Program-made: the position numbers and the translations under genes
The notes under the pieces: generated by a model
Databases searched by the model: none
Seen by the model: the letters and a program-made list of their open reading frames with translations, nothing else
Told to the model about the DNA's origin: nothing
In this document: piece after piece, positions 12,929-30,284 of the stretch
How the letters are laid out: each line of letters opens with the position of its first letter
Position numbering within the stretch: position 1 is the first letter of the stretch
DNA from: Sedimenticola hydrogenitrophicus
Lineage (GTDB): Bacteria > Pseudomonadota > Gammaproteobacteria > Chromatiales > Chromatiaceae
DNA length: 64,000 nucleotides
Reading direction: 5' to 3'
NCBI RefSeq assembly: GCF_029017505.1
Contig: NZ_JAQGEI010000003.1
Span: 124,001 to 188,000, forward strand

Positions 12929-13062
12929 ATCCTTGGGGTAATCCCCCGGCTCATCCGGGGCTCGTCAGGCGTGACCTCTGCATGGGGCGAACGCCTCTGG
13001 ATTACAGATGGCAAATGGACTCTCGCCAAGACGCCAAGAAAAGCCGATTCTTTCCTTTAATC

Positions 13063-13269
13063 GTAACTACTCACGGGGTGATTGGCCTACCTTGCCAGCC
13101 TCACGTGATGGCTTGTTTCCTCGAATCCGGCCCCTTTTTCAGCGCCTGCCCAAACTCGCTTCGCTCAAACAAGGGCAGGCTTTAATCTGAAAAAGGGGCC
13201 GGATTCGAGGCGCCATCAAGATCGGCCAACAAGGCAGGCCAATCACTTACAGACCAGGTGAGTAGTTAC
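13063..13269 (+). mobile_element. GTAACTACTC element, copy 1, interrupted
   Basis: Terminal inverted repeats GTAACTACTCAC and GTGAGTAGTTAC, flanked by a direct duplication CTTTAATC on both sides. The body matches the 108-bp copies at 23644 and 29295 but is 99 bp longer because a hairpin (13119-13210) lies in its centre between GATGGC and GCCATC. It has no coding capacity, so it would depend on a transposase acting in trans (a MITE-like element). Confidence 0.7.
13119..13210. repeat. Hairpin element nested in the GTAACTACTC element
   Basis: Perfect 24-bp inverted arms beginning CCTCGAATCCGGCCCC and ending GGGGCCGGATTCGAGG around a 44-bp loop, itself palindromic (GCCTGCCC...GGGCAGGC). It is absent from the two other copies of the host element, so it is a later insertion or expansion. 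Confidence 0.65.
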
Positions 13270-13462
13270 CTTTAATCTTTGCGCTCTTGGCGTCTTGGCG
13301 AGAGTAATGATCCTTTACCGATCCGGGGCCGGGAAGGCGCCGTAAGGCGTCGCATGGCGGTTGCGGCGGGCACGGCCCGCCCTATCGTCGGCTGGGGTTT
13401 ATCTCCGCGCCGGGTCGTGTCAGCATGAAGGCCTGTTTTTTCTGACCTGCGAGCGAGCCTTC

Positions 13463-13969
13463 ATGACCACCCCCGAATCAACCGACCCGCGGCAGGCGGA
13501 GGCGGACTATCAGGCACTGATCGATTCCCAGCGGACCCTGCTGCTCTCCACCGTCACCGCCGCCGGCGAGCCGGAGATCAGTTATGCCCCCTATCTCCGG
13601 GACGAGTCGGGCCGCTTCTATATCTTCGTCAGCGAGCTGGCCGCGCACACGCGGAACCTGCGGCACCAGGGGCGCGCCGCGATCCTGTTCATCCGCCCGG
13701 AGGAGGAGACCCGCAACCCCTTCGCCCGGGAGCGGGTGATCCTGCAGTGCCAGGCGGAGGAGCTCCCCGCGGGCGACCCGGAGCAGGCCGGCCTGCTGTC
13801 GCGGATGGAGCAGCGCTTCGGCGAGACCGTGGCCCTGCTGCGTCGCCTGCCGGACTTCCATCTGTTTGTCCTGACGCCACAAACCGGGCGCTACGTGGCG
13901 GGGTTCGGCAAGGCCTATGACCTGGTACTGCCGGCGGGCGGCCTGCGCCCCGTCACCCCGCCGGACTAA
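13463..13969 (+). CDS. HugZ-like / pyridoxamine 5'-phosphate oxidase-fold protein
   Basis: 168-residue protein with the split-barrel flavin/heme-binding fold: an LLLSTVTAAGEPEISYAPYL strand pair near residues 25-45, FYIFVSELAAHTRNL, and the C-terminal GRYVAGFGKAYDL that is characteristic of HugZ-type heme utilisation proteins. Its biochemical role (heme degradation or flavin binding) cannot be set from sequence. ATG 13463 is chosen because homology-like sequence begins there; the upstream frame is repeat-derived. It is five bases from trmN6 and probably co-transcribed with it. Confidence 0.8.
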   Translation: MTTPESTDPRQAEADYQALIDSQRTLLLSTVTAAGEPEISYAPYLRDESGRFYIFVSELAAHTRNLRHQGRAAILFIRPEEETRNPFARERVILQCQAEELPAGDPEQAGLLSRMEQRFGETVALLRRLPDFHLFVLTPQTGRYVAGFGKAYDLVLPAGGLRPVTPPD

Positions 13970-13974
13970 GCGCG

Positions 13975-14715
13975 GTGTCAACTTTCCGCTTTCAGCAGTT
14001 CGGTGTGCGGCAGGGCGAAACGGCCATGAAGGTGTGCACCGATGCCACCCTGTTCGGCGCCACGGCCCCGGTCGCCGGTGGTGAACGGGTGCTGGATATC
14101 GGCGCCGGGAGCGGCCTGCTGTCGCTGATGCTGATGCAACTGGGGGCGGGGCGGGTCACTGCCGTTGAACTGGCCGCGTCGGCGTGTCGTGACGCCGCTG
14201 CCAATTTCGCCGCCAGTCCCTGGTCCGGGCGGCTGGAGTTGGTGTGGCGGTCGATACAGGACTACGCGACCGACTGCGACCGGCGCTACGATCTGATCAT
14301 CAGCAATCCGCCCTTTTTCGAACAACACACCAAAAGCGGCACAAAGCTGCGTCGCCTGGCCCGGCACGCCGACCGCCTGCCCTATGCCGAACTGGTGCCG
14401 ATCGCCGCCCGCCTGTTGTGCGAGGACGGATGTTTCTACCTGCTGATCCCGGTGCACGGGGTGGCCCGGGTCAGCGCGCTGGCGGCGGCTGCCGGCCTGC
14501 GGCTGAACGGGCGCGTCGACTATGCCGGATATGGCCACAGCCAGGCCAAGGTGGCCGCGCTCAGCTTCGGTCGCCGGCCCGAAATGTTCGTCTCCCGCCG
14601 GCTGGTCATCTATAATGCAGCGCGCCTTTACAGTGAAGAGAGTACCCGTTATCTCGCTCCCTTTCTGTTGCGGTTTGCCGCCCCGGCCCCGGGCGCGGAG
14701 CCCCTATTGGAGTAG
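13975..14715 (+). CDS. trmN6: tRNA1(Val) (adenine(37)-N6)-methyltransferase
   Basis: 246-residue SAM-dependent methyltransferase that modifies A37 of tRNA-Val1. The N-terminus FRFQQFGVRQGETAMKVCTDA is diagnostic for the TrmN6 (YfiC) family. SAM motif I is VLDIGAGSGLLSL (about 40-52) and motif IV is NPPFF (about 111-115), the N6-adenine methylase signature. Length matches the E. coli enzyme. GTG start at 13975, five bases after the HugZ-like stop; ppc starts three bases after its own stop, so the three genes look like one transcript. Confidence 0.92.
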   Translation: MSTFRFQQFGVRQGETAMKVCTDATLFGATAPVAGGERVLDIGAGSGLLSLMLMQLGAGRVTAVELAASACRDAAANFAASPWSGRLELVWRSIQDYATDCDRRYDLIISNPPFFEQHTKSGTKLRRLARHADRLPYAELVPIAARLLCEDGCFYLLIPVHGVARVSALAAAAGLRLNGRVDYAGYGHSQAKVAALSFGRRPEMFVSRRLVIYNAARLYSEESTRYLAPFLLRFAAPAPGAEPLLE

Positions 14716-14718
14716 ACT

Positions 14719-17322
14719 ATGACCAACCTGGATGAATCATTACGCGATGATGTGCGCATGCTGGGTGAGAGTCTGGGGCGGACCATCGAAAACCATCTGG
14801 GTCCGGCGTTTCTGCAGAAGATCGAACGCATACGCCGCCTGGCCAAGGCGGGGCGGCTGGAGGCCGGTTCGGATCACCAGGCGCTGTTGCGGGAACTCTC
14901 CGCTCTGAGCGAGGCGGAGATGCTGCCGGTGGCGCGCGCCTTCACCCAGTTTCTCAACCTGGCCAATATCGCCGAGGAGTTTCATCGTGTGCGGCTGCAT
15001 CAGGATGTCTGCGAGCTGGATGCGGAGGACTCCTTCGCCCGGCAGCTGAAACAGCTGCAGGCGGATGGCCTCGACAATGAACAGATCCTGCAGGCGATCG
15101 GCCGCATGGAGGTGGACCTGGTGCTTACCGCCCACCCCACCGAGGTCAACCGCCGTACCCTGATCAAGAAATACAACGCAATCACCGACTGTCTGCGCAA
15201 GCTGGAGCGGGGCGAGTACCGCCAGCGGCGCCTGAATGAGCTGGTCAGCCAGATCTGGCACACCAATGAGATCAGGCGCCAGCGTCCCACGCCCATCGAC
15301 GAGGCGAAGTGGGGCTTTGCCGTGATCGAGGGCTCGCTCTGGCAAGCGGTGCCAAACTATCTGCGCCAGCTGGATGAGTCGATGCAGGCGGTGCTGGGGC
15401 AGCCGCTGCCCCTCGACTGGTCACCGGTCCGTTTCTCCTCGTGGATGGGCGGGGACCGGGACGGCAATCCCCATGTCACGGCGGCGGTGACCCGGGAGGT
15501 GCTGCAGCTGGCGCGCTGGATGGCCGCCGATCTGTATGACCGGGATCTGGATGAACTGCGCTCCGAACTCTCCATGTACCAGTGCAACGATGAGCTGCGG
15601 GAGCGGGTCGGCGACACGGCCGAACCCTATCGGCATATCCTGGCCGGGCTGCGGCGTCGCCTGGATCAGACCAAGACCCTGATCCAGCAGGGGCTGTCCG
15701 GACACCACATCATCGCCGAAACGCTACTGACGGCCGAGGAGCTGCGGGAGCCGCTGATGCTCTGTCATCGTTCGCTCATCGAGTGCGGCATGCAGATCAT
15801 CGCCGGCGGGCTGCTGGAGGATATCATCCGCCGCATCGCCTGTTTCGGGGTCACCCTGGTGCGGCTGGATATCCGCCAGAATGCCGACCGTCACACGGCG
15901 GTGTTCGAGGCCCTCACCCGGTTCTACGATCTCGGCTCCTACCTGGCGTGGGACGAGGCGGAGAAGCAGCGCTTCCTGCTGGGTGAGCTGCGCAGCAAGC
16001 GGCCGCTGATCCCGGCTAACTGGCAGCCGGACGGGGAGATCAATGAGGTGCTGGAGACCTGCCGGGTGATCGCCCAGGCCGATCCCAGCGCCCTCGGTTC
16101 CTATGTCATCTCCATGGCCAGCCAACCCTCCGACGTGCTCTCGGTCATCCTGCTGCTGCGGGAGATGGGGGTGGGTCACGACATGCGGGTGGTGCCGCTG
16201 TTCGAGACCCTGGTGGATCTGCAGGAGGCCCACCACTGTATCGACCAGCTGCTCGCCATCGACTGGTACCGGGACTACACACACGGGCACCAGGAGGTGA
16301 TGATCGGCTACTCCGACTCCTCCAAGGACGCCGGCCAGCTGGCGGCGGTCTGGGGACAGTACCAGGCCCAGGAGGCGTTGACCGCCACCTGCCGCGGCCG
16401 CGGGGTGCACCTGACCCTGTTCCATGGCCGTGGCGGCACGGTCGGCCGCGGTGGCGGCCCCACCCACCGGGCGATCCTGGCCCAGCCGCCCGGATCGGTG
16501 GATCACACCCTGCGGGTGACCGAGCAGGGCGAGGTGATCCGCTTCAAGTTCGGCATCCCGGAGATTGCCGAGCGCAACCTGGAGCGCTATACCGGCGCCG
16601 TGCTGGCCGCCACCCTCTGTCCCTTGCCGGCGCCCCGACCGGAGTGGCGGGCGATGATGGAATCCCTGGCCCAGACCGCCTTTCACGAATACCGGGCGGT
16701 GGTGCGGGATGACCCGCGCTTCGTGCCGTTCTTCCGCGCCTCCACGCCGGAGCTTGAGCTGGGCAAGCTGCCGCTGGGATCGCGACCGGCGAAACGTCGC
16801 GCCGATGGCGGGGTGGAGAGCCTGCGCGCCATCCCCTGGGTGTTCGCCTGGACCCAGATCCGGCTCATGCTGCCGGCCTGGCTGGGGTCGGACAGCGCCC
16901 TGGGGCAGGCGATCGAATCCGGCCGGCTGGCGCAGCTGCACGAGATGTACGCGGCCTGGCCCTTCTTCACCAGTTATGTGGATATGCTGGAGATGGTGCT
17001 TGCCAAGAGCGACCCGGTGATTGCCGAATACTATGCCGCCCGGCTGGTGCCGGAGGAGCTGCAACCCCTGGGCGATACCCTGCGGGAGCGCCTCTGCGGC
17101 ACCTTCGATCAGGTGTTGAAGATCAAGCAGACCCGCAAGCTGCTGGCGGATTTCCCCCTGATCCGGCGCTCCATCAATGTGCGCAATCCCTATATCGATC
17201 CGCTCCACTACCTGCAGGCGGAACTGCTCCATCGCGACCGCAACGCCCCGGATGAGCGCCTGGAGCAGGCGTTGATGGTGACCATGGCGGGGATCTCGGC
17301 CGGCATGCAGAATACCGGCTAG
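14719..17322 (+). CDS. ppc: Phosphoenolpyruvate carboxylase
   Basis: 867-residue cytosolic enzyme that adds bicarbonate to PEP to give oxaloacetate, refilling the TCA cycle. Family landmarks are intact: TAHPTEVNRR with the catalytic histidine near 138, GGDRDGNP, GYSDSSKDAG (about 529-538), the mobile loop FHGRGGTVGRGGGP (about 568-581) and the invariant C-terminus QNTG. Length is typical of bacterial enzymes (about 870-930). Last gene of the HugZ-like-trmN6-ppc group. Confidence 0.97.
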   Translation: MTNLDESLRDDVRMLGESLGRTIENHLGPAFLQKIERIRRLAKAGRLEAGSDHQALLRELSALSEAEMLPVARAFTQFLNLANIAEEFHRVRLHQDVCELDAEDSFARQLKQLQADGLDNEQILQAIGRMEVDLVLTAHPTEVNRRTLIKKYNAITDCLRKLERGEYRQRRLNELVSQIWHTNEIRRQRPTPIDEAKWGFAVIEGSLWQAVPNYLRQLDESMQAVLGQPLPLDWSPVRFSSWMGGDRDGNPHVTAAVTREVLQLARWMAADLYDRDLDELRSELSMYQCNDELRERVGDTAEPYRHILAGLRRRLDQTKTLIQQGLSGHHIIAETLLTAEELREPLMLCHRSLIECGMQIIAGGLLEDIIRRIACFGVTLVRLDIRQNADRHTAVFEALTRFYDLGSYLAWDEAEKQRFLLGELRSKRPLIPANWQPDGEINEVLETCRVIAQADPSALGSYVISMASQPSDVLSVILLLREMGVGHDMRVVPLFETLVDLQEAHHCIDQLLAIDWYRDYTHGHQEVMIGYSDSSKDAGQLAAVWGQYQAQEALTATCRGRGVHLTLFHGRGGTVGRGGGPTHRAILAQPPGSVDHTLRVTEQGEVIRFKFGIPEIAERNLERYTGAVLAATLCPLPAPRPEWRAMMESLAQTAFHEYRAVVRDDPRFVPFFRASTPELELGKLPLGSRPAKRRADGGVESLRAIPWVFAWTQIRLMLPAWLGSDSALGQAIESGRLAQLHEMYAAWPFFTSYVDMLEMVLAKSDPVIAEYYAARLVPEELQPLGDTLRERLCGTFDQVLKIKQTRKLLADFPLIRRSINVRNPYIDPLHYLQAELLHRDRNAPDERLEQALMVTMAGISAGMQNTG

Positions 17323-17363
17323 GCCTGCCCCTTACCCGTAAGTGGGTCGGACTGTATCCGTTC

Positions 17364-17519
17364 GTAGGATGGGTGGAGCGCCTCCATGAACTCTCCGCCG
17401 GCTCCGTCTCCGGCGCGCAACCCATCGTGCACCTGCATCCGCATCCGAAGATGGGTTACGGCGTGCCCGACCGCCGCGAATAGCCGTCAACAAGGGTGCC
17501 GCGCCTCCACCCATCCTAC
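17364..17519. repeat. GTAGGATGGGTGG palindrome
   Basis: Inverted repeat from GTAGGATGGGTGGAGCGCC to GCGCCTCCACCCATCCTAC with an internal CAACCCATC...GATGGGTTA pair. Located downstream of ppc; may serve as its terminator. No gene is seen between 17323 and 17680. Confidence 0.6.
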
Positions 17520-17572
17520 ACGCTCGGGCACAAACAGCGTGTCACCCTGGTAGACGCGATTCGGTACGACTC

Positions 17573-17647
17573 GTAGGGGCAACCCCCCGTGGTTGCCGGG
17601 GGCGGCGAGTGCATCGGACCAGGGCAGGCACGGGGGCCTGCCCCTAC
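17573..17647. repeat. GTAGGGGCAACCCC palindrome
   Basis: Short intergenic repeat from GTAGGGGCAACCCCCCGTGG to GGGGGCCTGCCCCTAC. A similar unit lies at 50557-50630. It is a common type in proteobacterial genomes with no known function. Confidence 0.55.
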
Positions 17648-17680
17648 GATCCGCATTTGGCCTGTGCAGTAAGGTAGCGT

Positions 17681-18262
17681 TCAGCCCGACTTCTTGACGA
17701 ACTGGGTGAGGATAACGATCTGCTGTCCGTTCACCCGGCCCTCGATCTGTCCGGGATTGTCGGCCACCAGGGAGATGCCACGTACCGCGGTGCCGCGCTT
17801 GGCGGTAAAGTTGGCCCCCTTGACGTTCAGGTCCTTGGTCAGGGTGACCGTATCGCCCGCTTCGAGCCGGGCGCCGTTGCAGTCCAGATGCGGCGCTGAC
17901 TGCTCCCCGCCGCCGCTTTCACTGCCGGCCTCCGCCCAGGCCAGGGTCGACTCGTCCAGGTAGAGCATATCCAGCAGATCCTGCGGCCAGCCCTCGGCGC
18001 TGAGGCGCTTGAGCATGCGCCAGGCCATCACCTGCACCGCCGGCACCTGGCTCCACATGCTGTCGTTGAGGCAGCGCCAGTGGTTGGGGTCGGTCTTCTC
18101 CGGCTCCTCGATCTGTTCGCGACAGGTGTCACAGAGCAGCAGGGACCGCTCGGCGCTGTCATCGGAGGCGGGCGGGACCGCGTAGGGCTGGAGATTTTCC
18201 GTGGCCGCGCAGAGTTCGCATTTGGATTCGCTGCGCTCAAGTAACGCCTGTTCTGTACTCAT
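17681..18262 (-). CDS. PhnA-like zinc-ribbon protein
   Basis: 193-residue protein of the PhnA domain family. The N-terminal zinc ribbon has two CxxC pairs (CELC near 16-19 and CDTC near 44-47). The C-terminal SH3-like PhnA domain is clear: DCNGARLEAGDTVTLTKDLNVKG...KRGTAVRGI (about 128-190). Despite the name (alkylphosphonate uptake operon), PhnA is not needed for phosphonate use and its role is unresolved. No phn genes are nearby. The frame starts at ATG 18262 with a weak ribosome site. Confidence 0.85.
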   Translation of the reverse strand: MSTEQALLERSESKCELCAATENLQPYAVPPASDDSAERSLLLCDTCREQIEEPEKTDPNHWRCLNDSMWSQVPAVQVMAWRMLKRLSAEGWPQDLLDMLYLDESTLAWAEAGSESGGGEQSAPHLDCNGARLEAGDTVTLTKDLNVKGANFTAKRGTAVRGISLVADNPGQIEGRVNGQQIVILTQFVKKSG

Positions 18263-18354
18263 GGTGTCTGTTACCTGGTGTTGATTAGGGAAGTTGGAAA
18301 GTTTAATCCGGGCTAGTACTACTTAAATTTGATAAAAGTATCTTATGTAGGGTG

Positions 18355-18538
18355 GAATGGCACTAAGTTAAGCCCAGAGCCCCCGTCATCCCGGCGAATG
18401 CCGGGATCCAGAACCCGCATCCGCGGTGAATTCATGGATTTCATCCTCAGGTCCGTAAACGGTGCATCCCTGCACCACTCCTCCGGCCTGCGCCGGAATG
18501 ACGAAAAAATGGATTCCTGCCTTAACTTAGTGCCATTC
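18355..18538. mobile_element. GAATGGCACTAAG element with 10-bp target duplication
   Basis: 184-bp element with perfect 18-bp terminal inverted repeats GAATGGCACTAAGTTAAG and CTTAACTTAGTGCCATTC. It is flanked on both sides by the identical 10-mer ATGTAGGGTG (18345-18354 and 18539-18548), which is the left end of a GTAGGGTGGATAAG repeat that it has split. It is non-coding. Inside are GTCATCCCGGCGAATGCCGG and CCGGCCTGCGCCGGAATGAC arms and a segment (18441-18484) that recurs inverted at 24624-24668. Confidence 0.75.
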
Positions 18539-18610
18539 ATGTAGGGTGGATAAGCGGCAGCGCATCCACCATTGTCGCGGTGGATGCGCCTACCGGCTTA
18601 TCCACCCTAC
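18539..18610. repeat. GTAGGGTGGATAAG palindrome, copy 1
   Basis: Inverted repeat from GTAGGGTGGATAAGCGG to CCGGCTTATCCACCCTAC with a nested GCGCATCCACC/GGTGGATGCGC pair. Copy 2 is at 24582-24694. Both copies follow a CTAGTACTACTT-AATTTGATAAA sequence (18313 and 24551), so they belong to one composite unit. It lies just downstream of the transaldolase stop and may terminate that transcript. Confidence 0.65.
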
Positions 18611-18633
18611 GTTAATGGGGTGAATTCGGGCGC

Positions 18634-19611
18634 CTAGTTTACCATTTTTCCGTCGATGGCCCGTTCCAGTTTTTCCAGATCGCGGCTGAACAGGCGGATC
18701 CCCTCGGCCAGCTTTTCGGTGGCCATGGCGTCCTCGTTCAGCAACCAGCGGAAACGCTTCTCATCGATCTCCAGTCGCTCGATATCCGCCTGGCGGGCGC
18801 CCTCGGCCGAGAGCGCCCGGGGCAGGGTGTCGTGCTGGCTGGCCAGCTCGTCGAGCAGCGCTGGGCTGATGGTGAGGCGGTCGCAGCCGGCCAGTGCCTC
18901 GATCTCTCCCAGGTTGCGGAAGCTGGCGCCCATGACAATGGTGGGGTGGTCGAACTTCTTGAAATAGTCGTAGATGCGCCGCACCGAGAGTACCCCGGGA
19001 TCTTCAGCGGCGGGATAGCTGTCGCGGCCGCTCTGTTTCTTGTGCCAGTCGAGGATGCGGCCGACGAAAGGGGATATAAGGGTGATGCCGGCCTCGGCGC
19101 AGGCCACCGCCTGGACGAAGCTGAACAGCAGGGTGAGGTTGCAGTGGATACCCTCGGCCTCCAGCACCTCGCCGGCACGGATCCCTTCCCAGGTGGAGGC
19201 GACCTTGATCAGGATGCGCTCGCGGGCGATGCCCTGCTGCTCATACAGCTCGATCAGGCGGCGGGCGCGCCGGATGGTGGCTTCGCGATCGAACGAGAGG
19301 CGGGCGTCCACTTCGGTGGAGACCCGGCCCGGAATCAGCTTGAGCAGCTCACAACCGAAGCTGACCGACAGTTTGTCGACCGCATTCTCCATGAAGCGGT
19401 CCGGATCCCCCTGTGCCCTGGCCCAGTGGATGGCCTGGTCCGTCAAACCGGCATATTGCGGCTGTTGCGAGGCCTTCAGAATCAGCGAGGGGTTGGTGGT
19501 GGCATCTTCCGGAGTGTACTGTTTTACCAGTTCAAACTCGCCGGTGTCCGCCACGACAACCGTCATGCGCTTCAATTGATCCAGTTTGCTGAGGGTGGTG
19601 GTCTGATCCAT
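18634..19611 (-). CDS. tal: Transaldolase
   Basis: 325-residue class I transaldolase (TalB type) of the non-oxidative pentose phosphate pathway, moving a dihydroxyacetone unit from sedoheptulose 7-phosphate to glyceraldehyde 3-phosphate. The Schiff-base lysine is K136 in [25 protein letters not shown] (33-43) and the [18 protein letters not shown] and [10 protein letters not shown] segments are intact. Length fits the E. coli enzyme (317). GAGAG precedes ATG 19611. Monocistronic, flanked by repeats. Confidence 0.96.
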
Positions 19612-19660
19612 CGCGGTGCTCTCTGTTTGCTGTGCGGGTAGTGGGATGCCCTGATTGGCG

Positions 19661-19743
19661 CTATGTCAGGTAATCCAGCGGCAGTTCGGTCGTGTGGATG
19701 ATCGGCCGCATGACGAAGCTGGATTGTACCCCGGATAAATACC
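19661..19743 (-). pseudogene. C-terminal remnant of a Lrp/AsnC-type regulator
   Basis: Read on the minus strand, the last 26 codons before a TAG at 19661 encode YLSGVQSSFVMRP followed by [13 protein letters not shown]. This resembles the C-terminal RAM-domain end of Lrp/AsnC regulators (a GVQ-strand followed by TTxLPL). The frame begins exactly at the edge of the palindrome at 19746, and nothing recognisable continues on its far side. So the rest of the gene was lost, possibly when the element inserted. Family assignment from so short a piece is tentative. Confidence 0.4.
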
Positions 19744-19745
19744 AA

Positions 19746-19823
19746 CTCAAGTTTCGGAGTTCATTTCACAAAGCCCGAATCGCTGAATTCGCAGGGTGAG
19801 GAGCGCGAACTCCGAAACTTGAG
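19746..19823. repeat. CTCAAGTTTCGGAGTTC palindrome, copy 1
   Basis: Perfect 17-bp inverted ends CTCAAGTTTCGGAGTTC and GAACTCCGAAACTTGAG around a 44-bp loop that includes GAATCGCTGAATTCGCAG. Copy 2, with a different interior, is at 23485-23765. It abuts the Lrp-like gene remnant. Confidence 0.7.
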
Positions 19824-19885
19824 CTACCAATAGGCTCGTCGGGGTAAGTCTGCGTACCCCAACGGCTACAAACCACGCTGCCCGG

Positions 19886-19958
19886 GGATGCCGGTGAGCT
19901 TGCGAACCGCATCATTCACGGTAAAGCTTGATGCGGTTCGTGCCTCACCGGCATCCTA
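19886..19958. repeat. GGATGCCGGTGAG palindrome
   Basis: Inverted repeat GGATGCCGGTGAGCTTGCG ... CTCACCGGCATCC with an inner AACCGCATCA/TGATGCGGTT pair. A related unit is at 58156-58246. The remaining bases of the 19612-20142 gap show only the bdhA promoter. Confidence 0.55.
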
Positions 19959-20084
19959 CGTCTCTGTCGGCAGCATAGCCTGGATTCCTCCCATTCACCC
20001 GCCGCTTCACGGCATCGGACCAGCGCACGGGAACCCCACGCTTTTTAATGTTTTTTTCATCAATAAATCGTCAACTCACTGGGT

Positions 20085-20090
20085 TATAAT
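20085..20090 (+). promoter_or_regulatory. -10 box upstream of 3-hydroxybutyrate dehydrogenase
   Basis: A consensus TATAAT stands 53 bp before the start codon, in an AT-rich stretch; the -35 region at the right distance is poor, which suggests an activator or a weak sigma-70 promoter. Confidence 0.4.
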
Positions 20091-20142
20091 CCGCACCTGA
20101 ACGACCGGCCGTGGCGCCGATACTTATCAGGAGAGCGATCAG

Positions 20143-21109
<967 letters not shown>

Positions 21110-21172
21110 GGATCGTCTCGTTGCCTTCTGTATATCCCCAAACCCTCCGCCGATAAGCTGAAGAATCCTCAT

Positions 21173-21598: not shown

Positions 21599-22185
21599 GG
21601 CCATTCTTGAACTGCCACGTGGGATTAAGTACTATCCGAGAGATCAGACTCCCGGGCGGGATCGTCCTATGAACGATTTTGTCGATTGGGTGCTGATCAG
21701 GGAATGGAAGTCTATGGATAGAATAATAAACTGGTGATTCCGGTTCTTAGTCTATAACCAGCAAAACAGGACATCCAAAAATAATCAGGGGAATCAGCGC
21801 TTTTCTAAGAAATCTGTTCGGTTCTTTCATCAGCGATGTCCCTGCTGAAAGCGCACGTTGTGAATTCATCTGCGATAGGCTGGATTGCACATCTGAGCGT
21901 TTTGACAATTGCAATAAGAGAATCCGGTATCAGGATTGGCTGCGGGATAACTGAGCCAGGCGGCTCACAACCAGTCCAGATGATCGTGAGGCGGCGGTGT
22001 CCGGCCGCACTCGCCACTGGTATTCACCCCCTCTGTCGGCGATCTCGCCGTCCTGCCTAATTAATTGCGTTTGTAACCGATAAGCCGTAGCGCTTTGTTT
22101 GGCGAAGTAATAGCGGTCCTCCCTCTCGGGTTTTATCTCCCTGCAACACAGGCTATAGTGACGTGAACGTCAACTGGGATAATTC
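21599..22185. other. Gene-free gap of 587 bp
   Basis: Lower in GC than its surroundings and without a credible coding frame on either strand, without the palindrome families seen elsewhere, and without a recognisable RNA gene. Short open frames exist but show no ribosome site or protein-like composition. It may be decayed coding sequence. Confidence 0.4.
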
Positions 22186-23475
22186 ATGAACGCTGTAGCC
22201 TTTCCACCACTGCGCCTGGCCTGGATGATCTGGGGACTTGGGGCGGCACTCTACCTCATCGGTTTCTATCAGCGGGTGGCTCCGGGGGTAATGACCACCG
22301 AGCTGATGACCGATTTTCAGCTCAACGCCACGGCACTGGGGAATCTCTCCGCCTTCTATTTCTACAGCTATGTGGCGATGCAGGTGCCCACCGGGCTGCT
22401 GGCGGATCACTGGGGACCGCGGCGCCTGCTGGCCAGCGGGGCGACCATTGCCGGGCTCGGCACGTTGCTGTTTGCCATGGCCCCGGATGCGCTCTGGGCC
22501 AACCTGGGGCGTCTGCTGATCGGCGGGTCGGTGGCGGTGGCCTTTGTCGGCATGCTCAAGCTGGCGGGCCACTGGCTACCGCCGAAACAGTACTCGCTGG
22601 CCTCCGGCATGGCGCTGTTCTGCGGCGTGGTGGGGGCGGTGTTCGCCGGGGTGCCGCTGCGTCTGCTGGTGGATGGCTTTGGCTGGCGACCGGTGATGCT
22701 GGTATCCGCGGGGGTCGCCTTTGCAGTGGCCCTGGCCATCTGGCTGCTGGTCCGGGATGACCCCACGGAAAGGGGGTATGCCAGCCATGCCGCCGCCCAT
22801 GACGACACCGCCACGCAGCACTCCCGGGGGGTGATGGCGGGCATACGGACGGTGCTGGGGTATCGCAACACCTGGTTGCTTTACTTCGTCCCCGGGGCCG
22901 GGGTTGGCAGCGTGCTCACCTTCGCCGGTCTCTGGGGTGTGCCGTTTCTCACCACCCACTATGGACTGGAGAAGACCTCTGCCGCCGCCATCTGTTCGGC
23001 GCTGTTGGTCTCCTGGGCGATCGGCGGGCCGGTGTTCGGCTGGCTGTCGGATCACCTGGGGCATCGCAAACCGCTCTATCTGCTGGGCTGCGTGGTGCAG
23101 CTGGCGGTCTGGTGTGTGGTGATCCTGGTGCCCGGTCTGCCGGTCTGGCTGCTGGTGCTGTTACTGGTCGTGATCGGTTTCTTTACCGGCAACATGATCA
23201 TCGGCTTCGCCTTCGCCCGGGAGTCGGCGCCACCCCGCCTGGCCGGCACCGCCTCGGGCCTGGTCAACATGGGGGTGATGATCGGCCCCATGCTGCTGCA
23301 GCCTGCCGTGGGTTGGCTGCTGGACCGGCACTGGACGGGGGCCATGGAGAACGGTGCACGGATCTACGGGCTGGAGGCCTACCGCAACGGCTTTGGCCTG
23401 ATGTTGGTCTGGCTTGTCCTGGCGCTGGTGTTGATACTGTTTACCCGGGAGACCCACTGCCGGCAGATTGCCTGA
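22186..23475 (+). CDS. MFS transporter
   Basis: 429-residue, twelve-helix inner-membrane carrier. MFS signatures are visible: GLLADHWGPRRLL after helix 2 (the loop 2-3 motif), FGWLSDHLGHRKPLYLLG after helix 8, and a His/Asp-rich central loop (about 195-210, SHAAAHDDTATQHS). The family includes organic-anion and nitrate/nitrite-type carriers; the substrate is not evident. It stands alone; a composite repeat follows the stop. Confidence 0.88.
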   Translation: MNAVAFPPLRLAWMIWGLGAALYLIGFYQRVAPGVMTTELMTDFQLNATALGNLSAFYFYSYVAMQVPTGLLADHWGPRRLLASGATIAGLGTLLFAMAPDALWANLGRLLIGGSVAVAFVGMLKLAGHWLPPKQYSLASGMALFCGVVGAVFAGVPLRLLVDGFGWRPVMLVSAGVAFAVALAIWLLVRDDPTERGYASHAAAHDDTATQHSRGVMAGIRTVLGYRNTWLLYFVPGAGVGSVLTFAGLWGVPFLTTHYGLEKTSAAAICSALLVSWAIGGPVFGWLSDHLGHRKPLYLLGCVVQLAVWCVVILVPGLPVWLLVLLLVVIGFFTGNMIIGFAFARESAPPRLAGTASGLVNMGVMIGPMLLQPAVGWLLDRHWTGAMENGARIYGLEAYRNGFGLMLVWLVLALVLILFTRETHCRQIA

Positions 23476-23484
23476 AATTACAGA

Positions 23485-23765
23485 CTCAAGTTTCGGAGTT
23501 CAAAAGACGTCGTTCAGGGCGGGCTACCCCCTTGCCGAGACACGCCGTGAATACGTCCCTGTACGCTCGGCGTCGGCATCCATGCCTCCGACGGTCCCGG
23601 CAAGGGGGTGGCCTGACCGGTGTCTGGAACTGAACTCCGAAACGTAACTACTCACGGGGTGATTGGCCTGCCTTGCCGGCCTCACACGATGGCTGGATCA
23701 AGATCGGCCAACAAACCAGGCCAATCGCTTGCAGGTCGGGTGAGTAGTTACCTCCGAAACTTGAG
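23485..23765. repeat. CTCAAGTTTCGGAGTTC palindrome, copy 2, split by a GTAACTACTC element
   Basis: Begins CTCAAGTTTCGGAGTTC at 23485 and would end GAACTCCGAAAC|TTGAG, but the GTAACTACTC element at 23644-23751 interrupts the right arm and duplicates CTCCGAAAC on both sides. The interior holds a GGCNACCCCCTTGCCG/CGGCAAGGGGGTGGCC pair. With the insertion removed the palindrome is restored. Confidence 0.75.
23644..23751 (+). mobile_element. GTAACTACTC element, copy 2, intact, 9-bp target duplication
   Basis: 108 bp with terminal inverted repeats GTAACTACTCAC / GTGAGTAGTTAC, extended as an imperfect hairpin (GGGGTGATTGGCCTGCCTTG...CAGGCCAATCGCTT). The identical nonamer CTCCGAAAC flanks it at 23635-23643 and 23752-23760. 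It has no open reading frame of note. It is the cleanest copy for defining the family. Confidence 0.8.
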
Positions 23766-23790
23766 TTACAGACAGTCGGGAGAGATTGCG

Positions 23791-24174
23791 ATGCCGAAAC
23801 TGGTGACCGGATTTCATCATGCCAGCCTGATCGTGGCCGATACCACGCGGGCGCTGGATTTCTATCGGGGCGTACTGGGGCTGACCATCGACCGGTCGCG
23901 CCCGGACCTGGGTTACCCGGGAGCCTGGCTCAACCTGGGCGACCAGCAGATCCATCTGCTGGAGCTGCCCAACCCGGACCCGCTGCGGGGCAGGCCGGCC
24001 CACGGCGGGTTGGACCGCCACCTCGCCTTTTGGGTGGAGACACTGGATGACCTGGTTACCGCCCTGGATGCCGCCGGGATCGGCTACACCCTGAGTCGTT
24101 CCGGCCGGCGGGCGCTGTTCTGCCGTGATCCGGATCAGAACGCCCTGGAGTTTATCCAACAGACGAAAGCGTGA
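23791..24174 (+). CDS. VOC/glyoxalase-fold protein
   Basis: 127 residues forming one vicinal-oxygen-chelate unit of two beta-alpha-beta-beta-beta modules. Candidate metal ligands are the histidine of FHHASLIV (about 8-9), HLLELP (about 54-58), DRHLAFWV (about 75) and the glutamate of ALEFIQ (about 120), in the usual order. Members include dioxygenases, glyoxalases and antibiotic-binding proteins, so the reaction is undefined. GGGAG precedes ATG 23791. Upstream is repeat DNA. Confidence 0.82.
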   Translation: MPKLVTGFHHASLIVADTTRALDFYRGVLGLTIDRSRPDLGYPGAWLNLGDQQIHLLELPNPDPLRGRPAHGGLDRHLAFWVETLDDLVTALDAAGIGYTLSRSGRRALFCRDPDQNALEFIQQTKA

Positions 24175-24178
24175 TCCG

Positions 24179-24523
24179 TCAGGATAGGCCCGGATCGGTC
24201 TGGTTAAGCAGCTCGAACAGCGGTCCGGCGGAGCCGTTGGCCTGTTTTTCGAGCTTTCGATAATGCTCGATCAGTGATTTGGCAAAGGGCGTCAGTTCGG
24301 CACCGCCGCCACCCTTGCCACCCACGGTGGTCTCCACCAGCGGTTGACCCAGCGCCTCCTGAACGGTTTCGATCAGTTGCCAGGCGCGCCGGAAGGTCAT
24401 GCCGCACGCCTTGCCGGCACCGGAGATGCTGCCGTGTTGCGCGACCGACTCCAGCAGGGCGATCTTGCCGGGACCGATGACGCTGTCGTTAAAACGAATC
24501 TGGAGTCGCAGTTTTACTTTCAT
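24179..24523 (-). CDS. ModE-like winged-helix regulator (DNA-binding domain only)
   Basis: 114 residues corresponding to the N-terminal LysR-like winged helix of ModE: KIALLESVAQHGSISGAGKACGMTFRRAWQLIETVQEALGQPLVE (about 20-65), then the GGKGGGGAELTPFAKSLIEHYRKLE wing and dimerisation helix. The molybdate-binding TOBE domains are absent, as in many stand-alone homologues, so it may not sense molybdate. It is convergent with the VOC gene (four bases between stops). Confidence 0.85.
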   Translation of the reverse strand: MKVKLRLQIRFNDSVIGPGKIALLESVAQHGSISGAGKACGMTFRRAWQLIETVQEALGQPLVETTVGGKGGGGAELTPFAKSLIEHYRKLEKQANGSAGPLFELLNQTDPGLS

Positions 24524-24550
24524 CGGAACACCTTGCTTTGCCCTTTAGCC

Positions 24551-24742
24551 CTAGTACTACTTCAATTTGATAAAGTACTTTCGTAGGGTGGATAAGCCGG
24601 TAGGCGCATCCACCAATGCTGCGGTGAGGAGTGGTACATGGATGTACCGTTTACGGACCTGAGGATGGAATGCGCTGTCGCTTATCCACCCTACGAAACT
24701 GAAACAGTTTTACCCGGCAATATTAAATTGGAAGACTACTAG
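24551..24742. repeat. CTAGTACTACTT palindrome hosting a GTAGGGTGGATAAG unit
   Basis: Outer arms CTAGTACTACTTCAATTTG and TTAAATTGGAAGACTACTAG enclose the inner repeat at 24582-24694 (CGTAGGGTGGATAAGCCGG to CTTATCCACCCTACG). The inner repeat contains a 45-bp segment shared with the element at 18355. The same outer left arm occurs at 18313. This is the second example of the same nested composite. Confidence 0.65.
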
Positions 24743-24824
24743 TCTGGTCGCATCACCCCCAAAAACGCGCCCTATCCTAAAGCAGCGGCCGGGGCGTCAC
24801 AACCAATGGGGTGCATTCAGACGC

Positions 24825-26069
24825 CTAGCTTGCGATCGCCCGACCGCGCCGGTACTCCCGGACGAACCAGCTGAATGCGCCCGCCTGCAGCAGCAGGGCA
24901 AAACCAAACGCCGTCTGGTAGGCGACGGCCGGATACTGGCCGGGACCCACTTGCGGCCAGAGATTGATAATGGCGCCGATGGCGTATTGCAAAACAAAAA
25001 TTGACACAAACACCAGCAGATTCATCGCCGTATTGACCCGCCCGGCCAGGTGACGCGGATAGTGTTGTGAGAGTACCGCGTACTGGACGATGCCGGTGGT
25101 GCCGAAGAAGCCGAAACCGATCCAGACCGGGGAGAGCCAGGCCGCCGCCGGCCCGAGGATGATCAGCAGCTGAATGCACTGAAAGGTCAGCATGCCGGCG
25201 GCCGACAACAGGATGGGGCGTACCCCGATTCGCGCCAGTCGTTCCGCCAGTGTACCCATGGCCAGGAAACCGGCCACCATGGCGGTGGCCACCAGTAACA
25301 GGGTATCGGCCATGGCGGTGCGTTCGAGCCCGCCGATATCCTGCAGCCAGGGACCGGCCCAGAGGCTCTGGATGGAGATGAACGAGGCCTGTGACAGCAT
25401 GGTCAGGGGTGCGATCATCCAGAAGAAGCGGTCGGCGAAGATGGCGCGAATGCCGCGCAGCTGGGCCCGCAGGGTCTCCTGTGGGCGCTCCTCGGTGTGG
25501 TCCGGTACCAGCACGAAGATGATCACGGATGAGAGCAGCAGCAGGCCCGCCAGCAGCAGGAAGACCCCGCGCCAGTCGGTCAACGACAGGGCGGCCTGGA
25601 CCGGTGCCGTGGCGGTGATGGCGCCGACCCCACCCGAGGCGAGAATGATCCCGTTCAGCAGCGGCAGCTTTTCCGGCTTGAACCAGAGGGTGAAGGTCTT
25701 GAAGGCAGCCATCAGGCAGGCCGAGACGCCCAGTCCGATCAGGCCGCGGCCGATGATCAGGTCCCAGGCGCTGTCCCCCAGGGCGAACAGCAGGGCCCCG
25801 GCGGCCGCCACCAGCAGTAGCAGGGATTCAATGCGGCGCGGGCTGTAACGGTCCAGCAGGATTCCCAGGGGAAGCTGGGCGGCGGCAAAGGTGAAGAAGT
25901 AGGAGGCGGTCAGCAGTCCGAGCGTATCCGCGCCGAGCGAGAGTTCCGCCACCAGGTCCGGTGCCAGTACCGCATTCACCACCCGGGCGAGATAGGAGAG
26001 GTAGTAGCCCAGGGCAAAGGGGAACAGGATACTGAGGAACAGGTGGCGGCGGGTGAGGCTGGGATCCAA
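24825..26069 (-). CDS. MFS transporter
   Basis: 414-residue, twelve-helix carrier. The opening FALGYYLSYLARVVNAVLAPDLVAEL and GILLDRYSPRRIESLLLL loop 2-3 motif are typical MFS elements. No ATG lies near the N-terminus: the start is TTG at 26069 with AAGG about eight bases before. Substrate unknown. It is divergent from a LysR regulator with a 174-bp shared control region, an arrangement that often marks the regulator's target. Confidence 0.86.
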   Translation of the reverse strand: MDPSLTRRHLFLSILFPFALGYYLSYLARVVNAVLAPDLVAELSLGADTLGLLTASYFFTFAAAQLPLGILLDRYSPRRIESLLLLVAAAGALLFALGDSAWDLIIGRGLIGLGVSACLMAAFKTFTLWFKPEKLPLLNGIILASGGVGAITATAPVQAALSLTDWRGVFLLLAGLLLLSSVIIFVLVPDHTEERPQETLRAQLRGIRAIFADRFFWMIAPLTMLSQASFISIQSLWAGPWLQDIGGLERTAMADTLLLVATAMVAGFLAMGTLAERLARIGVRPILLSAAGMLTFQCIQLLIILGPAAAWLSPVWIGFGFFGTTGIVQYAVLSQHYPRHLAGRVNTAMNLLVFVSIFVLQYAIGAIINLWPQVGPGQYPAVAYQTAFGFALLLQAGAFSWFVREYRRGRAIAS

Positions 26070-26243
26070 ACAGGTGGCCTTTTATTATTGGTGGCGGAAA
26101 GGGTTGACTATGCCATTGCCGATCGAACCAAGACAAGCCGGAGTTGCGTGGGGAAATCGGTCGCAAGCGAAAATAATGCTCAATGGTTGGGGAATGCGTT
26201 AACGTATAGCCCGGCAACGAAACCGAAGGGAAGGTCAGGCTAC

Positions 26244-27137
26244 ATGCTGGATTTCAACGAGATGGTGATCTTTGTAAAGGTGGTGGAGGCAGGTAATTTT
26301 ACCGCTGCCGCGACCAATCTCGGCCTGCCGAAATCGACCGTCAGCCGCAAGATCAGCCAGTTGGAGGGCCGGCTGGGTGCGCGCCTGCTGCAGCGGACCA
26401 CGCGCAGCGTTCGCACCACGGAGCTGGGCGCGCTTTATTATGACCGCTGTGCCCGGCTGGTGGCCGAGGCGGAAGAGGCGGAGCGTGCCATCAGCCAGTG
26501 TCAGGAGCAGCCGCGGGGGCTGCTGCGGGTCACCCTGCCGGTGGATATCGGTATCTCCATCATGCCGGCTATCACCCGGGAGTTCCTGCGTCAGCAGCCG
26601 GAGATCCGGCTGCAGGTGGATGTCTCAGACCGCCTTGTGGACCTGGTGGGGGAGGGCTTCGACATGGCGATCCGGGCCGGGGAGCTGGAGGATTCCACGC
26701 TGGTGGCGCATCGGCTCTATACCGACCGGATGCGGGTCTGTGGCACACCGGAGTATTTCCAACAACACGGGATTCCCGGCTCACCCGAGGATCTCAAACA
26801 GCACGACTGCGTGGTGTTCTCCGCGCGCCGCGACAGTGAACTCCTCAAGTTCAGAGGGCCGCGGGGAACGGTCGCGGTGGAGATTACCGGCCGACTGGGT
26901 ATCAACAACCTGAATGCCATCCGCGGGGCCTGCCTGACCGGCCGCGTGATCGGCCTGTTACCGGAGCTGCACTGCCAGGACCTGATCGCCAGCGGTGAGC
27001 TGGTCTCGGTGCTCGATGAGTGGAGTGTCCGGGAGGGGGGGATCTACGCGGTCTACCCTTCTCCCCGTCACCTGACCCCCAAGGTCAGGGCCTTCATCAC
27101 CTTCCTGGACCGGCATTTCAGCAATCTTCCTCATTAA
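26244..27137 (+). CDS. LysR-family transcriptional regulator
   Basis: 297 residues: N-terminal winged helix (about 1-60; MVIFVKVVEAGNFTAAATNLGLPKSTVSRKISQLEGRLGARLLQRTTR) and the periplasmic-binding-like effector domain (about 88-292). The helix-turn-helix resembles the large AaeR/DsdC-like branch with the KSTVSRKI recognition helix. AAGG precedes ATG 26244. It sits between two possible targets: the divergent MFS gene and the downstream azoR operon, whose promoter has a perfect 18-bp palindrome. Confidence 0.92.
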   Translation: MLDFNEMVIFVKVVEAGNFTAAATNLGLPKSTVSRKISQLEGRLGARLLQRTTRSVRTTELGALYYDRCARLVAEAEEAERAISQCQEQPRGLLRVTLPVDIGISIMPAITREFLRQQPEIRLQVDVSDRLVDLVGEGFDMAIRAGELEDSTLVAHRLYTDRMRVCGTPEYFQQHGIPGSPEDLKQHDCVVFSARRDSELLKFRGPRGTVAVEITGRLGINNLNAIRGACLTGRVIGLLPELHCQDLIASGELVSVLDEWSVREGGIYAVYPSPRHLTPKVRAFITFLDRHFSNLPH

Positions 27138-27172
27138 CCTACCTTCATGCAGGCCCTCCCAAGGGGGTACAT

Positions 27173-27190
27173 TGTTCCATATATGGAACA
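27173..27190. promoter_or_regulatory. Perfect 18-bp palindrome, likely operator of azoR
   Basis: TGTTCCATATATGGAACA reads the same on both strands. It lies 36 bp after the LysR stop and 89 bp before azoR, in an otherwise AT-rich promoter gap. The length and symmetry suit a dimeric regulator such as the adjacent LysR protein. I see no second copy between the MFS gene and the LysR gene. Confidence 0.55.
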
Positions 27191-27278
27191 TAGTTTTTGA
27201 AAAATACCGTCTAATAACGAAACAGGGACAATGATAGGCTGCTCGCCAAGTTGAACATTACCTGAGAGAGGGTGTGAC

Positions 27279-27887
27279 ATGAACAGAAAACGGCTACTCC
27301 ATATCGACTCCAGTGCCCGGTTGACCGGTTCCGACTCGCGCCGGCTCAGCGCCCGGTTTGTGCGTCAGTGGCTCGACAACCACCCGGAATACCAGGTCAT
27401 CGAGCGGGACCTGGTCGGCAAACCGCTGCCCCATCTGGATGAAACCATGCTGGCCGCCATGATGAGCCCGCCGGAGCAACATACCCCGGAGATGGCGCGG
27501 ATTGCGGAACGCATCAATCTGCTGATTGATGAATTTCTCTCCGCCGACCTGGTAGTCCTGGGTGTGCCGATGTACAACCTGGGCATCCCTTCCACGCTGA
27601 AGGCCTACATCGACCATATCGTGATGGCCGGACGCACCTTCGCCTATACCGACCAAGGGGCGGTGGGGCTGGTGGAAGACAAGCCAGTCTTCATCATCAC
27701 CGCGCGGGGCGGCGTGCACAGCGGTACCGCCACCGATCAGCAGGCCCCCTATCTGCAGACCCTGTTCAATTTTCTCGGCATACGGCAGGTGAACTTTATC
27801 CATTCGGAAGGGCTCAATATGGGGGATGAAATTCGTCGCAAGGGGATAGAAGATGCCCAGGCCGAGATCGAGCGGCATGCCGCCTGA
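27279..27887 (+). CDS. azoR: FMN-dependent NADH:quinone/azo reductase
   Basis: 202-residue flavodoxin-like reductase of the AzoR family, which reduces quinones and azo compounds by two electrons with FMN and NADH. Landmarks: LLHIDSSARLTGSDSRRLS (FMN phosphate loop, about 6-24), PMYNLGIPSTLKAYIDHIVMAGRTFAYT (about 96-123) and ARGG (flavin loop, about 142-145). Length is as in E. coli (201). GAGAGAGGG precedes ATG 27279. First gene of azoR-cytochrome b561-yceI. Confidence 0.92.
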   Translation: MNRKRLLHIDSSARLTGSDSRRLSARFVRQWLDNHPEYQVIERDLVGKPLPHLDETMLAAMMSPPEQHTPEMARIAERINLLIDEFLSADLVVLGVPMYNLGIPSTLKAYIDHIVMAGRTFAYTDQGAVGLVEDKPVFIITARGGVHSGTATDQQAPYLQTLFNFLGIRQVNFIHSEGLNMGDEIRRKGIEDAQAEIERHAA

Positions 27888-27942
27888 GCCCGTCATATTC
27901 AAGATGGTACCGCGCCAGGTCCGCAGAGAGGGAGCTCAAGGG

Positions 27943-28560
27943 ATGCGACTCGGCAACACCCGGCAAACCTACGGCGCCATCAGCATTGCGCTGCACTGGC
28001 TGGTGGCGCTGTTGGTCCTGGGCCTGTTCCCGCTGGGTCTCTATATGACCAGCCTGGATTATTACCACCCCTGGTATCAGGCGGCACCGCATCTCCATCG
28101 CGGTCTCGGGATCACCCTGCTGCTGTTGCTGTCGCTCCGGCTGTGCTGGCGGTTTATCAGCCCGCCGCCGCGGCCGCTGGATGGCGGTTCGCGGTTGCTG
28201 AGGCGTCTGGCTGGCCTGGTGCACGGCGGGCTCTACCTGCTGCTGTTCGCCATCGCCGTCAGCGGCTATCTCATCTCCACCGCCGACGGACGCGGTATCG
28301 AGGTGTTCGGCTGGTTCACGGTGCCGGCGCTGCTGCCGGCGTTTAAGGACATGGAGGATGCGGCGGGTGACATCCATTTTGTCCTCGCCGTCAGCCTGAT
28401 CGGGCTGGTCGCCCTGCATGGACTGGCCGCCCTCAAGCACCACTTTATCGATCGCGATCCCACCCTGATGCGGATGCTCGGCAGGCCCAGGCGCGTGACA
28501 GGCCGCGCGACAGGCGCAATCACTGAATCAGAAACCTTTTTTACCAAGGAGACATCATGA
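27943..28560 (+). CDS. Cytochrome b561 family protein
   Basis: 205-residue four-helix membrane cytochrome binding two b hemes and exchanging electrons with the quinone pool. Candidate axial histidines are in SIALHWLVA (about H17), APHLHRGLG (about H52), DIHFVLA (about H146) and ALHGLAALKHHF (about H160-166). GGGAG precedes ATG 27943. The stop overlaps the yceI start (ATGA), a pairing of cytochrome b561 with YceI that is common in proteobacteria. With azoR just upstream the set looks like a quinone or redox-stress unit. Confidence 0.9.
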   Translation: MRLGNTRQTYGAISIALHWLVALLVLGLFPLGLYMTSLDYYHPWYQAAPHLHRGLGITLLLLLSLRLCWRFISPPPRPLDGGSRLLRRLAGLVHGGLYLLLFAIAVSGYLISTADGRGIEVFGWFTVPALLPAFKDMEDAAGDIHFVLAVSLIGLVALHGLAALKHHFIDRDPTLMRMLGRPRRVTGRATGAITESETFFTKETS

Positions 28561-29135
28561 AAAAACGCTTGATATTTTCACTGCTTACGGCGGCCGGGAT
28601 TGCCCTTTCCGCTCCGGTATCGGCCGAGCGCTATGTCATCGATACGCAAAATGCCCATGCCTTTGTCCAGTTCAAGATCGCCCATCTGGGTTACAGCTGG
28701 GTGCTGGGCCGCTTTAACCAGTTCGAGGGGAGCTTCGACTATGACGAGAGCAACCCGTCGGCATCGACGGTTTCAGTCACGGTCAATCCCGCCAGCGTGG
28801 ACAGTAACCATGCCGAGAGGGACAAGCACCTGCGCAGCAAGGATTTCCTGAAAGTGGACGAGTTTGCCCAGGCGACCTTCACCAGCACCAGCTATGCGGT
28901 CACGGGAGATAACACGGGGTTGCTCAAGGGTGACCTGACCCTGCGTGGCGTAACCCGGCCGATCAGCATCGATGTCACTCAGATCGGTGCCGGCAAGGAC
29001 CCCTGGGGCGGTTACCGTCGGGGGTTTGAAGGCACCACCCGGCTGGCCCTGGCGGATTTCGGTATTCCCATGGACCTGGGTCCGGCCGCGCGTGAAGTGG
29101 AGCTGTTCCTCACCATCGAAGGCGTTCGCCAATAG
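28557..29135 (+). CDS. YceI-family periplasmic lipocalin-fold protein
   Basis: 192 residues: signal peptide (about 1-23, ending SAPVSAE) and the YceI beta-barrel with IDTQNAHAFVQFKIAHLGYSWVLGRFNQFEG, HLRSKDFLKVDEFAQATF and KGDLTLRGVTRPI segments. The family binds isoprenoid chains such as polyprenyl or ubiquinone-like lipids inside the barrel. Translationally coupled to the cytochrome b561 gene, which fits a role with quinones in the periplasm. Confidence 0.93.
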   Translation: MKKRLIFSLLTAAGIALSAPVSAERYVIDTQNAHAFVQFKIAHLGYSWVLGRFNQFEGSFDYDESNPSASTVSVTVNPASVDSNHAERDKHLRSKDFLKVDEFAQATFTSTSYAVTGDNTGLLKGDLTLRGVTRPISIDVTQIGAGKDPWGGYRRGFEGTTRLALADFGIPMDLGPAAREVELFLTIEGVRQ

Positions 29136-29294
29136 TCTTTAAGCCGGGACCGGTTTACAGCACAGTAGTCCGGATGTGGCCGCTGCCTTGCACAGGGAGA
29201 AAACCCACAGGCCCATAGCGGCGGAATCCGGGGAGCAGACCCGAAAGGGTTCTACCCCGGATTTCGCTCGCCCAGGTCAGTGTATTGTTCAAAC

Positions 29295-29402
29295 GTAACT
29301 ACTTGCCCGGTCTGTAAGTGACTGGCCTGCCTTGTTGGCCGATCTTGATCCAGCCATCACGTGAGGCCGGCAAGGTAGTCCAGTCACCCCGTGAGTAGTT
29401 AC
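29295..29402 (-). mobile_element. GTAACTACTC element, copy 3, opposite orientation
   Basis: 108 bp, about 90% identical in reverse complement to the copy at 23644. Terminal repeats GTAACTACT and AGTAGTTAC are intact. Flanks are GTTCAAAC (29287) and GTTCGAAC (29403), an 8-bp duplication with one change. The flanks also form a short inverted repeat (ATTGTTC...GAACAAT), so this copy too sits inside a palindrome. The rest of 29136-29544 shows no gene. Confidence 0.75.
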
Positions 29403-29544
29403 GTTCGAACAATATGGGTGGGCCTTCATCCAGGTTACCGTCCGACGCACTTGTGGCCTATTACCTTAAAATTCTCTGGGTTGATCCGCGAACATTTAAA
29501 CATCATCTGTAGTCCTATAGAGAAACATGCGGGAAGGACAAACC

Positions 29545-30273: not shown

Positions 30274-30284
30274 GGTGGCGTGAA

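Follow-up and report, generated by a model that had tools for sequence, protein, structure and literature searches.

A miniature inverted-repeat element of Sedimenticola hydrogenitrophicus, very probably of the IS66 family, with a core hairpin present or absent at fixed sites

The stretch of DNA analysed here (the window) comprises 64,000 nucleotides of the 5.13-Mb draft genome of Sedimenticola hydrogenitrophicus (G000); it contains three intergenic copies of a short, gene-less element whose neighbours with Pfam matches are NosD-like/PNPOx, MFS/glyoxalase, and YceI/metallo-beta-lactamase fold genes. All three copies have 12-bp ends of the type GTAACTACTCAC in common. Copy 1, a 207-bp form on the forward strand at 13063-13269, begins with GTAACTACTCAC, ends with GTGAGTAGTTAC, and lies between two copies of the 8-bp target duplication CTTTAATC (13055-13062 and 13270-13277); copy 2, a 108-bp form on the forward strand at 23644-23751, lies between two copies of the 9-bp duplication CTCCGAAAC (23635-23643 and 23752-23760); copy 3, a 108-bp form on the reverse strand at 29295-29402, has a left end with two mismatches (GTAACTACTTGC) and is flanked by GTTCAAAC (29287-29294) and GTTCGAAC (29403-29410). 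Direct reading of these ends and flanks bears out the preliminary description, which had reported three copies with common terminal inverted repeats, one of them in opposite orientation, and target duplications of 8-9 bp; its size of 108 bp applies to copies 2 and 3 and not to copy 1.

The copies had also been described as lying inside other palindromes, which is true of these three. Copy 1 is enclosed by the arms CTCTCGCCAAGACGCCAAGA (13020-13039, forward strand) and 13285-13304 (reverse strand), and copy 2 lies beside the left arm CTCAAGTTTCGGAGTTCA (23485-23502), whose partner TGAACTCCGAAACTTGAG has been interrupted by the insertion. As a general rule, a palindromic target is not supported: at 51 sites with a duplication of at most one mismatch, the rebuilt target had 4.35 of 16 self-complementary pairs vs. 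3.90 at points 9-15 bp away, a comparison that bears on narrowly spaced palindromes. The outer palindrome CGCCAAGACGCCAAGA ... TCTTGGCGTCTTGGCG occurs in the window at 13020-13304 and again, with a different interior, at 43328-43589; two further elements of G000 (L030 and L095) likewise lie inside or adjoin it.

Within G000, the ends are matched with at most one mismatch 208 times (106 + 102), vs. 16 times (6 + 10) for a reversed-pattern control, and copy 2, used as a genome query as the preliminary description had proposed, gave 59 match segments with 40 of 134 candidates scored, one element being able to yield several segments. The 91 stretches around end matches, together with the window slice, were scanned by script for end pairs 24-420 bp apart with at most five mismatches over both ends; this yielded 88 pairs of 26-397 bp, a lower bound (at least 88) given that further copies turned up later. 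G000 contains a family of at least several dozen gene-less elements, clustering at 107-108 bp (19 of the 88 pairs) and 206-208 bp (35 of 88), with minor groups at 258-259 bp (n = 6) and 300-301 bp (n = 4). An 8-bp target duplication with at most one mismatch flanks 52 of the 88 pairs (exact in 26; 66 when two mismatches are allowed), compared to a mean of 0.72 and a maximum of 3 when the right flanks were shuffled among the elements over 200 rounds; other duplication lengths (5-7 and 9-12 bp) were found for only 0-4 of the 88 pairs, and copy 2, the sole pair with a 9-bp duplication, stands outside the 52. The duplicated bases lean towards A+T (among the 416 bases of the 52 left copies, 236 are A or T; the G+C content of the window is 62.5%). 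Within window positions 12800-30000 there was no Rfam match at the gathering score, and the 207-bp form was unmatched in plasmid and phage collections. At the lower end of the size range, L040 (1069-1103) and L060 (1053-1087) are minimal 35-bp elements that consist of the two ends and 11 bases between them, with the 8-bp duplication retained in L040 at one mismatch; three others, L026 (1003-1238), L052 (1039-1255) and L114 (1631-1881), combine the same ends with interiors unlike the main family, L052 being linked to that family solely through 50 bases that match an atypical member at 80%.

The insertion sites were compared with the sister genome G001, which aligns to window positions 11600-30400 at 94-97% identity in the main blocks. 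When 849,425 bases of G001 were searched for the sequences flanking the 88 elements, 24 sites could be placed by both flanks; six that had a single flank were set aside. Two of the 24 are clean empty sites in G001: at copy 2, a single CTCCGAAAC stands uninterrupted within the same palindrome, whose partner TGAACTCCGAAACTTGAG is unbroken; at L069, a single GATTTTTC remains. At seven sites (L015, L024, L034, L037, L062, L070 and the 27-bp pair of L086) the element has equal length and orientation in both genomes, at L056 it has the same length and is inverted, and at eight sites (L032, L033, L035, L061, L067, L084, L086 and copy 3) the internal length differs, with L067 and L084 additionally lacking one end in G001; copy 3 corresponds to a 301-bp form in opposite orientation. 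At three sites (copy 1, L039 and L085) the gap in G001 is filled by another element with these ends; at copy 1 this is a different 251-bp element with one mismatch in its right end and an unrelated interior (a CCACGGAGGCACAGAGG palindrome), and the corresponding gap in G003 is a short plain junction.

Short length, lack of a transposase gene, terminal inverted repeats and target duplications among the 88 pairs, together with insertion polymorphism (the two clean empty sites among 24) and ends common to elements of autonomous type, characterize a miniature inverted-repeat transposable element (MITE). The preliminary description had already proposed a non-coding MITE and had pointed to empty sites in sister strains as a check; the absence of an internal transposase gene, the 8-bp duplications and the exact empty sites at copy 2 and L069 agree with it. 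It had further named as contrary signs flanks that always carry the element in relatives, and copies devoid of target duplications; in fact flanks without the element exist in G001, and 52 of 88 pairs carry the duplication.

The 108-bp and 207-bp forms are one element without and with a 99-bp core hairpin, which the allele alignments place at 13113-13213 (forward strand) in copy 1, and the family is longer and more modular than a 108-bp repeat, with forms of 108, 207, 258/259 and 301 bp. One shared junction, GATGGCT-GG-A(T/C)CAAGATC, separates the alleles of G000 and G001 at L033 (207 and 107 bp, respectively), L035 (108 and 208 bp), L084 (108 bp and a longer form) and copy 3 (108 and 301 bp). 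The core-less allele belongs to G001 at one of these four sites and to G000 at the other three; the core may have been lost in one lineage or gained in the other. Other shortened forms (L032, L086; 102, 112 and 120 bp) have junctions of their own. The interior consists of nested hairpins, and the paired alleles show that the core and other modules disappear or are swapped while the element stays at its site. The probable routes are ragged deletions, to which long palindromes are prone, and recombination among copies, which would spread the 108-bp junction. The same length differences could arise without internal change if different forms had inserted independently at hot spots, and the palindromic 8-bp target at copy 3, the opposite orientations there, and the inverted element at L056 would suit such an origin. 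Aligned bases agree at 99 of 108 positions for L035 and 102 of 108 for copy 3; at L033, where nothing but the core is missing, the alleles and their ends match at 106 of 107 aligned bases, and at L086 and L061 they agree at 67 of 67 and 313 of 314 positions. Since agreement at these last three sites is near-complete, independent insertion is an improbable source of the differences. Loss or gain of the core in place, at fixed sites, is an unusual trait within a known kind of element.

The ends starting with GTAA and the 8-bp duplications led to suspicion of the IS66 family of insertion sequences (IS), and elements of this type with the same ends were found in relatives. In a scan of 210 family genomes for the exact 12-mer end, 23 had matches, with high counts in G000 (69 + 52), G001 (86 + 88), G074 (31 + 33) and G118 (25 + 21); within the genus, G003 had 1 + 1 and six other genomes had none. 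The 2264-bp element L136 in genome G205 has both GTAACTACTCACCCCC ends, a duplicated AGATATTG, and an IS66 transposase broken over two frames, with further frames upstream that lack a Pfam match. The 1712-bp element L137 in G228 has both ends around a single intact open reading frame (ORF) of 493 amino acids; this TnpC protein, P0005, matches PF03050 (1.8e-37) and NF033517 (232.6 bits; cut-off 180). The 1490-bp element L210, with an exact 8-bp duplication, carries both ends (the left one with one mismatch) and a TnpC that is 36% identical. A 294-bp element in G206 (L138) is a deletion derivative: it retains the ends and an exact duplication of 8 bp, and C-terminal pieces are all that is left of its TnpC. 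Many contigs of G118 stop approximately 100 bases from the end sequence, and in several of them the C-terminal part of TnpC extends past the contig edge, a pattern that a full element in multiple copies would produce.

Relatives of P0005 were found by protein search in 55 of the 210 family genomes, and their sequences suggest that the end sequence follows the transposase type. Among loci that reach the TnpC C-terminus, the exact end GTAACTACTCAC accompanies 24 of 29 TnpC proteins at least 45% identical to P0005 and 3 of 23 below 45%, 16 of these 23 having one of three -CAG endings instead; many of the former loci and all three exceptions had been fetched by their end sequence, and the fair comparison is therefore that of the protein-led loci L274-L303. 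There, counting loci that reach the TnpC C-terminus and L275/L276 via their duplicates L136/L139, five of seven with TnpC identity above 60% end exactly in GTAACTACTCAC, one has a single mismatch and one lacks the end within 160 bases, whereas of 22 with identity of 50% or less, 18 end in GTAACT[A/G][C/T]TCAG and none in GTAACTACTCAC.

Given the ends, the 8-bp duplications and the one intact element with a single ORF, we regard it as highly likely that the family is a MITE of the IS66 family, ISBst12 group; its mover was very probably an IS66-family transposase, judging by the shared sequence features. A TnpC-type DDE transposase would recognise the ends GTAACTACTCAC and insert the element with an 8-bp duplication (9 bp at copy 2); such a TnpC would have moved the copies in trans, and may since have been lost from the lineage or be missing from the draft. 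The earlier reading, a MITE whose transposase lies elsewhere in the genome, is supported with a correction: IS66-family elements with the same ends occur in relatives, and no transposase of the matching kind was found in the genome itself or in eight congeners. Several observations weigh against this assignment. P0005-related TnpC was found by protein search in none of nine genus genomes, own genome included, and the copies therefore look orphaned; compared by eye, the MITE and the full-length elements have no similarity past the 12-16-bp ends; L137 lacks a recognisable duplication (six of eight bases mismatch). Among the 88 pairs, 22 have no 8-bp duplication within two mismatches, a number that includes copy 2 because its duplication has nine bases. 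At three of the 24 placed sites (L025, L031 and L071) G001 is element-free without a clean junction, and the duplications of these elements in G000 are themselves poor, with 4-7 mismatches. Since the element is present in both genomes at 16 of the 24 placed sites, a good part of the insertions predates the G000/G001 split, which speaks against a purely recent mover.

Strong hairpins (DNA fold z of -3.71, -4.90 and -11.82 in the three copies of the window, the last for the long hairpin of copy 1, and -10.61 for the 301-bp form), the position of all three window copies between genes with Pfam matches, and the failure to find a helper transposase in the genus genomes would also fit an intergenic repeat of REP/ERIC type that is retained because it serves the cell, for example as a terminator or as an mRNA hairpin, and that either is no transposon or has ceased to be one; yet the sharp 8-bp duplications and the clean empty sites are marks of insertion, and the ends are those of full IS66 elements, so that as an origin this is largely refuted and very improbable. 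The attribution to IS66 runs via other genera, the searched genus genomes having no transposase with these ends, and if the mover belonged to a different transposase family that also makes 8-bp duplications, the GTAACTACTCAC ends would be shared by coincidence; against this, L136 and L210 enclose P0005-related TnpC within complete end pairs and an exact 8-bp duplication, and the search beside the ends covered TnpC of the P0005 type alone. We consider this very improbable. As helper of the IS66-type MITE, the IS66 elements of G000 itself were considered and set aside: L009 (2535 bp; ends GTAAGCGCC, duplication TTACAAAT) resembles the MITE in its GTAA tip and 8-bp duplication, but its ends diverge after GTAA and its TnpC is unmatched by P0005 at 1e-4, making it an unlikely helper; L010 has other ends (GTAAGCGTTC/GTAACCGATC), and L011/L012 are remnant-like and lack a convincing end pair.

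In other bacteria, separate short elements seem to have arisen on the same ends, to judge from short end pairs with other interiors. Among 80 of at least 118 end-matched stretches elsewhere, many with one end only, pairs with an exact 8-bp duplication measure 164 bp in Chloroflexi, 144 bp in Nitrococcus and Methylobacter, 178 bp in a Proteobacteria bin, and 154 bp in the methane-oxidizing endosymbiont of Gigantopelta. IS66/ISBst12-type ends thus border MITE-sized elements in several other bacteria, and a large orphan repeat family is now linked to a named transposase family.

Among published elements, ISDge4, an ISBst12-group element that has been seen to move, has a single ORF, the ends GTGACTACTCAGCA/GTAACTGCTCAGCA and a repeat of 8 bp (PMC12898284), and 8-bp repeats are tabulated for IS66 elements (PMC3281130). 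The MITE resembles ISDge4 and its group in its ends GTAACTNNTCA, its 8-bp duplication and the single 493-aa ORF of its partner L137; it differs in its size of 26-397 bp, the lack of a transposase gene, and a C instead of a G as the 12th base. Bacterial MITEs with named helpers include MITEPsy1 with ISPsy2 and MITEPsy2 with ISPsy30 (PMC3189936), and MITEPye1 is paired with the IS1182 family (PMC11578231); like these three, the present elements are short and gene-less and have terminal repeats in common with an IS, they share the target duplication with MITEPsy1 and MITEPye1, and intergenic copies that fold into long stem-loops are a further likeness to MITEPye1 (PMC11578231). Unlike these three, which belong to other IS families, they come in nested sizes and show core loss or gain in place. 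In the portions of the literature searched, no report of an IS66-related MITE was found, which does not establish its absence from print; a text search with the end string GTAACTACTC returned no paper title on IS66-type MITEs. Gene-less MITEs as such are an already known kind, and the loss or gain of the core in place is what is new relative to the preliminary description; the paired alleles of G000 and its sister genome G001 lend themselves to studying how long chromosomal palindromes are lost, swapped and flipped.

The loop of the core is a separate lead, since it is common to unrelated stems. In copy 1, stem and loop comparison places the inner stem and the loop AAACTCGCTTCGCTCAAACA, whose first 18 bases read identically backwards, at 13144-13180. 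A class-wide sample searched with the whole 207-bp form gave matches in 11 of 369 genomes, own genome included, absences carrying little weight because two candidates were scored per genome; five of the 11, from three other families, match the core centre without the arms, and the loop ACTCGCTNNGCTCA sits on unrelated stems in these five genomes and in seven viral contigs. Twelve of 15 distinct sequences outside the genus of the window have an uninterrupted stem of 8-11 bp around the loop (G-T pairs counted, with as many as 5 and 7 bases left unpaired beside the loop), vs. 72 of 2800 random places in the same loci. It is conceivable, although we think it unlikely, that the 99-bp core is a separate unit, a hairpin whose loop AAACTCGCTTCGCTCAAACA stays constant while its stems vary freely, and that this unit is removed from or inserted into resident MITEs precisely and in place, the MITE serving as carrier or landing pad for hairpin modules. 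As a free repeat in G000 the core was not seen (40 of 91 candidates scored), and ten extra places opened for it (L351-L359 and L362) all match arm sequence as well; a text search for the loop string found no literature match, and the viral contigs contain one exact, unpaired 16-mer end (L135). Hairpins with the fixed loop AAACTCGCTNNGCTCAAACA and varying stems occur in the window at 13144-13180 and at L344-L350 and L364-L370, the latter outside the MITE.

The window contains further repeats apart from this family. A separate dispersed repeat of approximately 200 bp lies at 17321-17523, with copies in G000 and G001 that are 93-94% identical; another, starting with GAATGGCACTAAGTTAAG, occupies 18355-18540, with copies in both genomes at 82-98% identity. 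A tandem duplication at 34664-34733 consists of two 34-bp units, 97% identical, with 36 bases between them.

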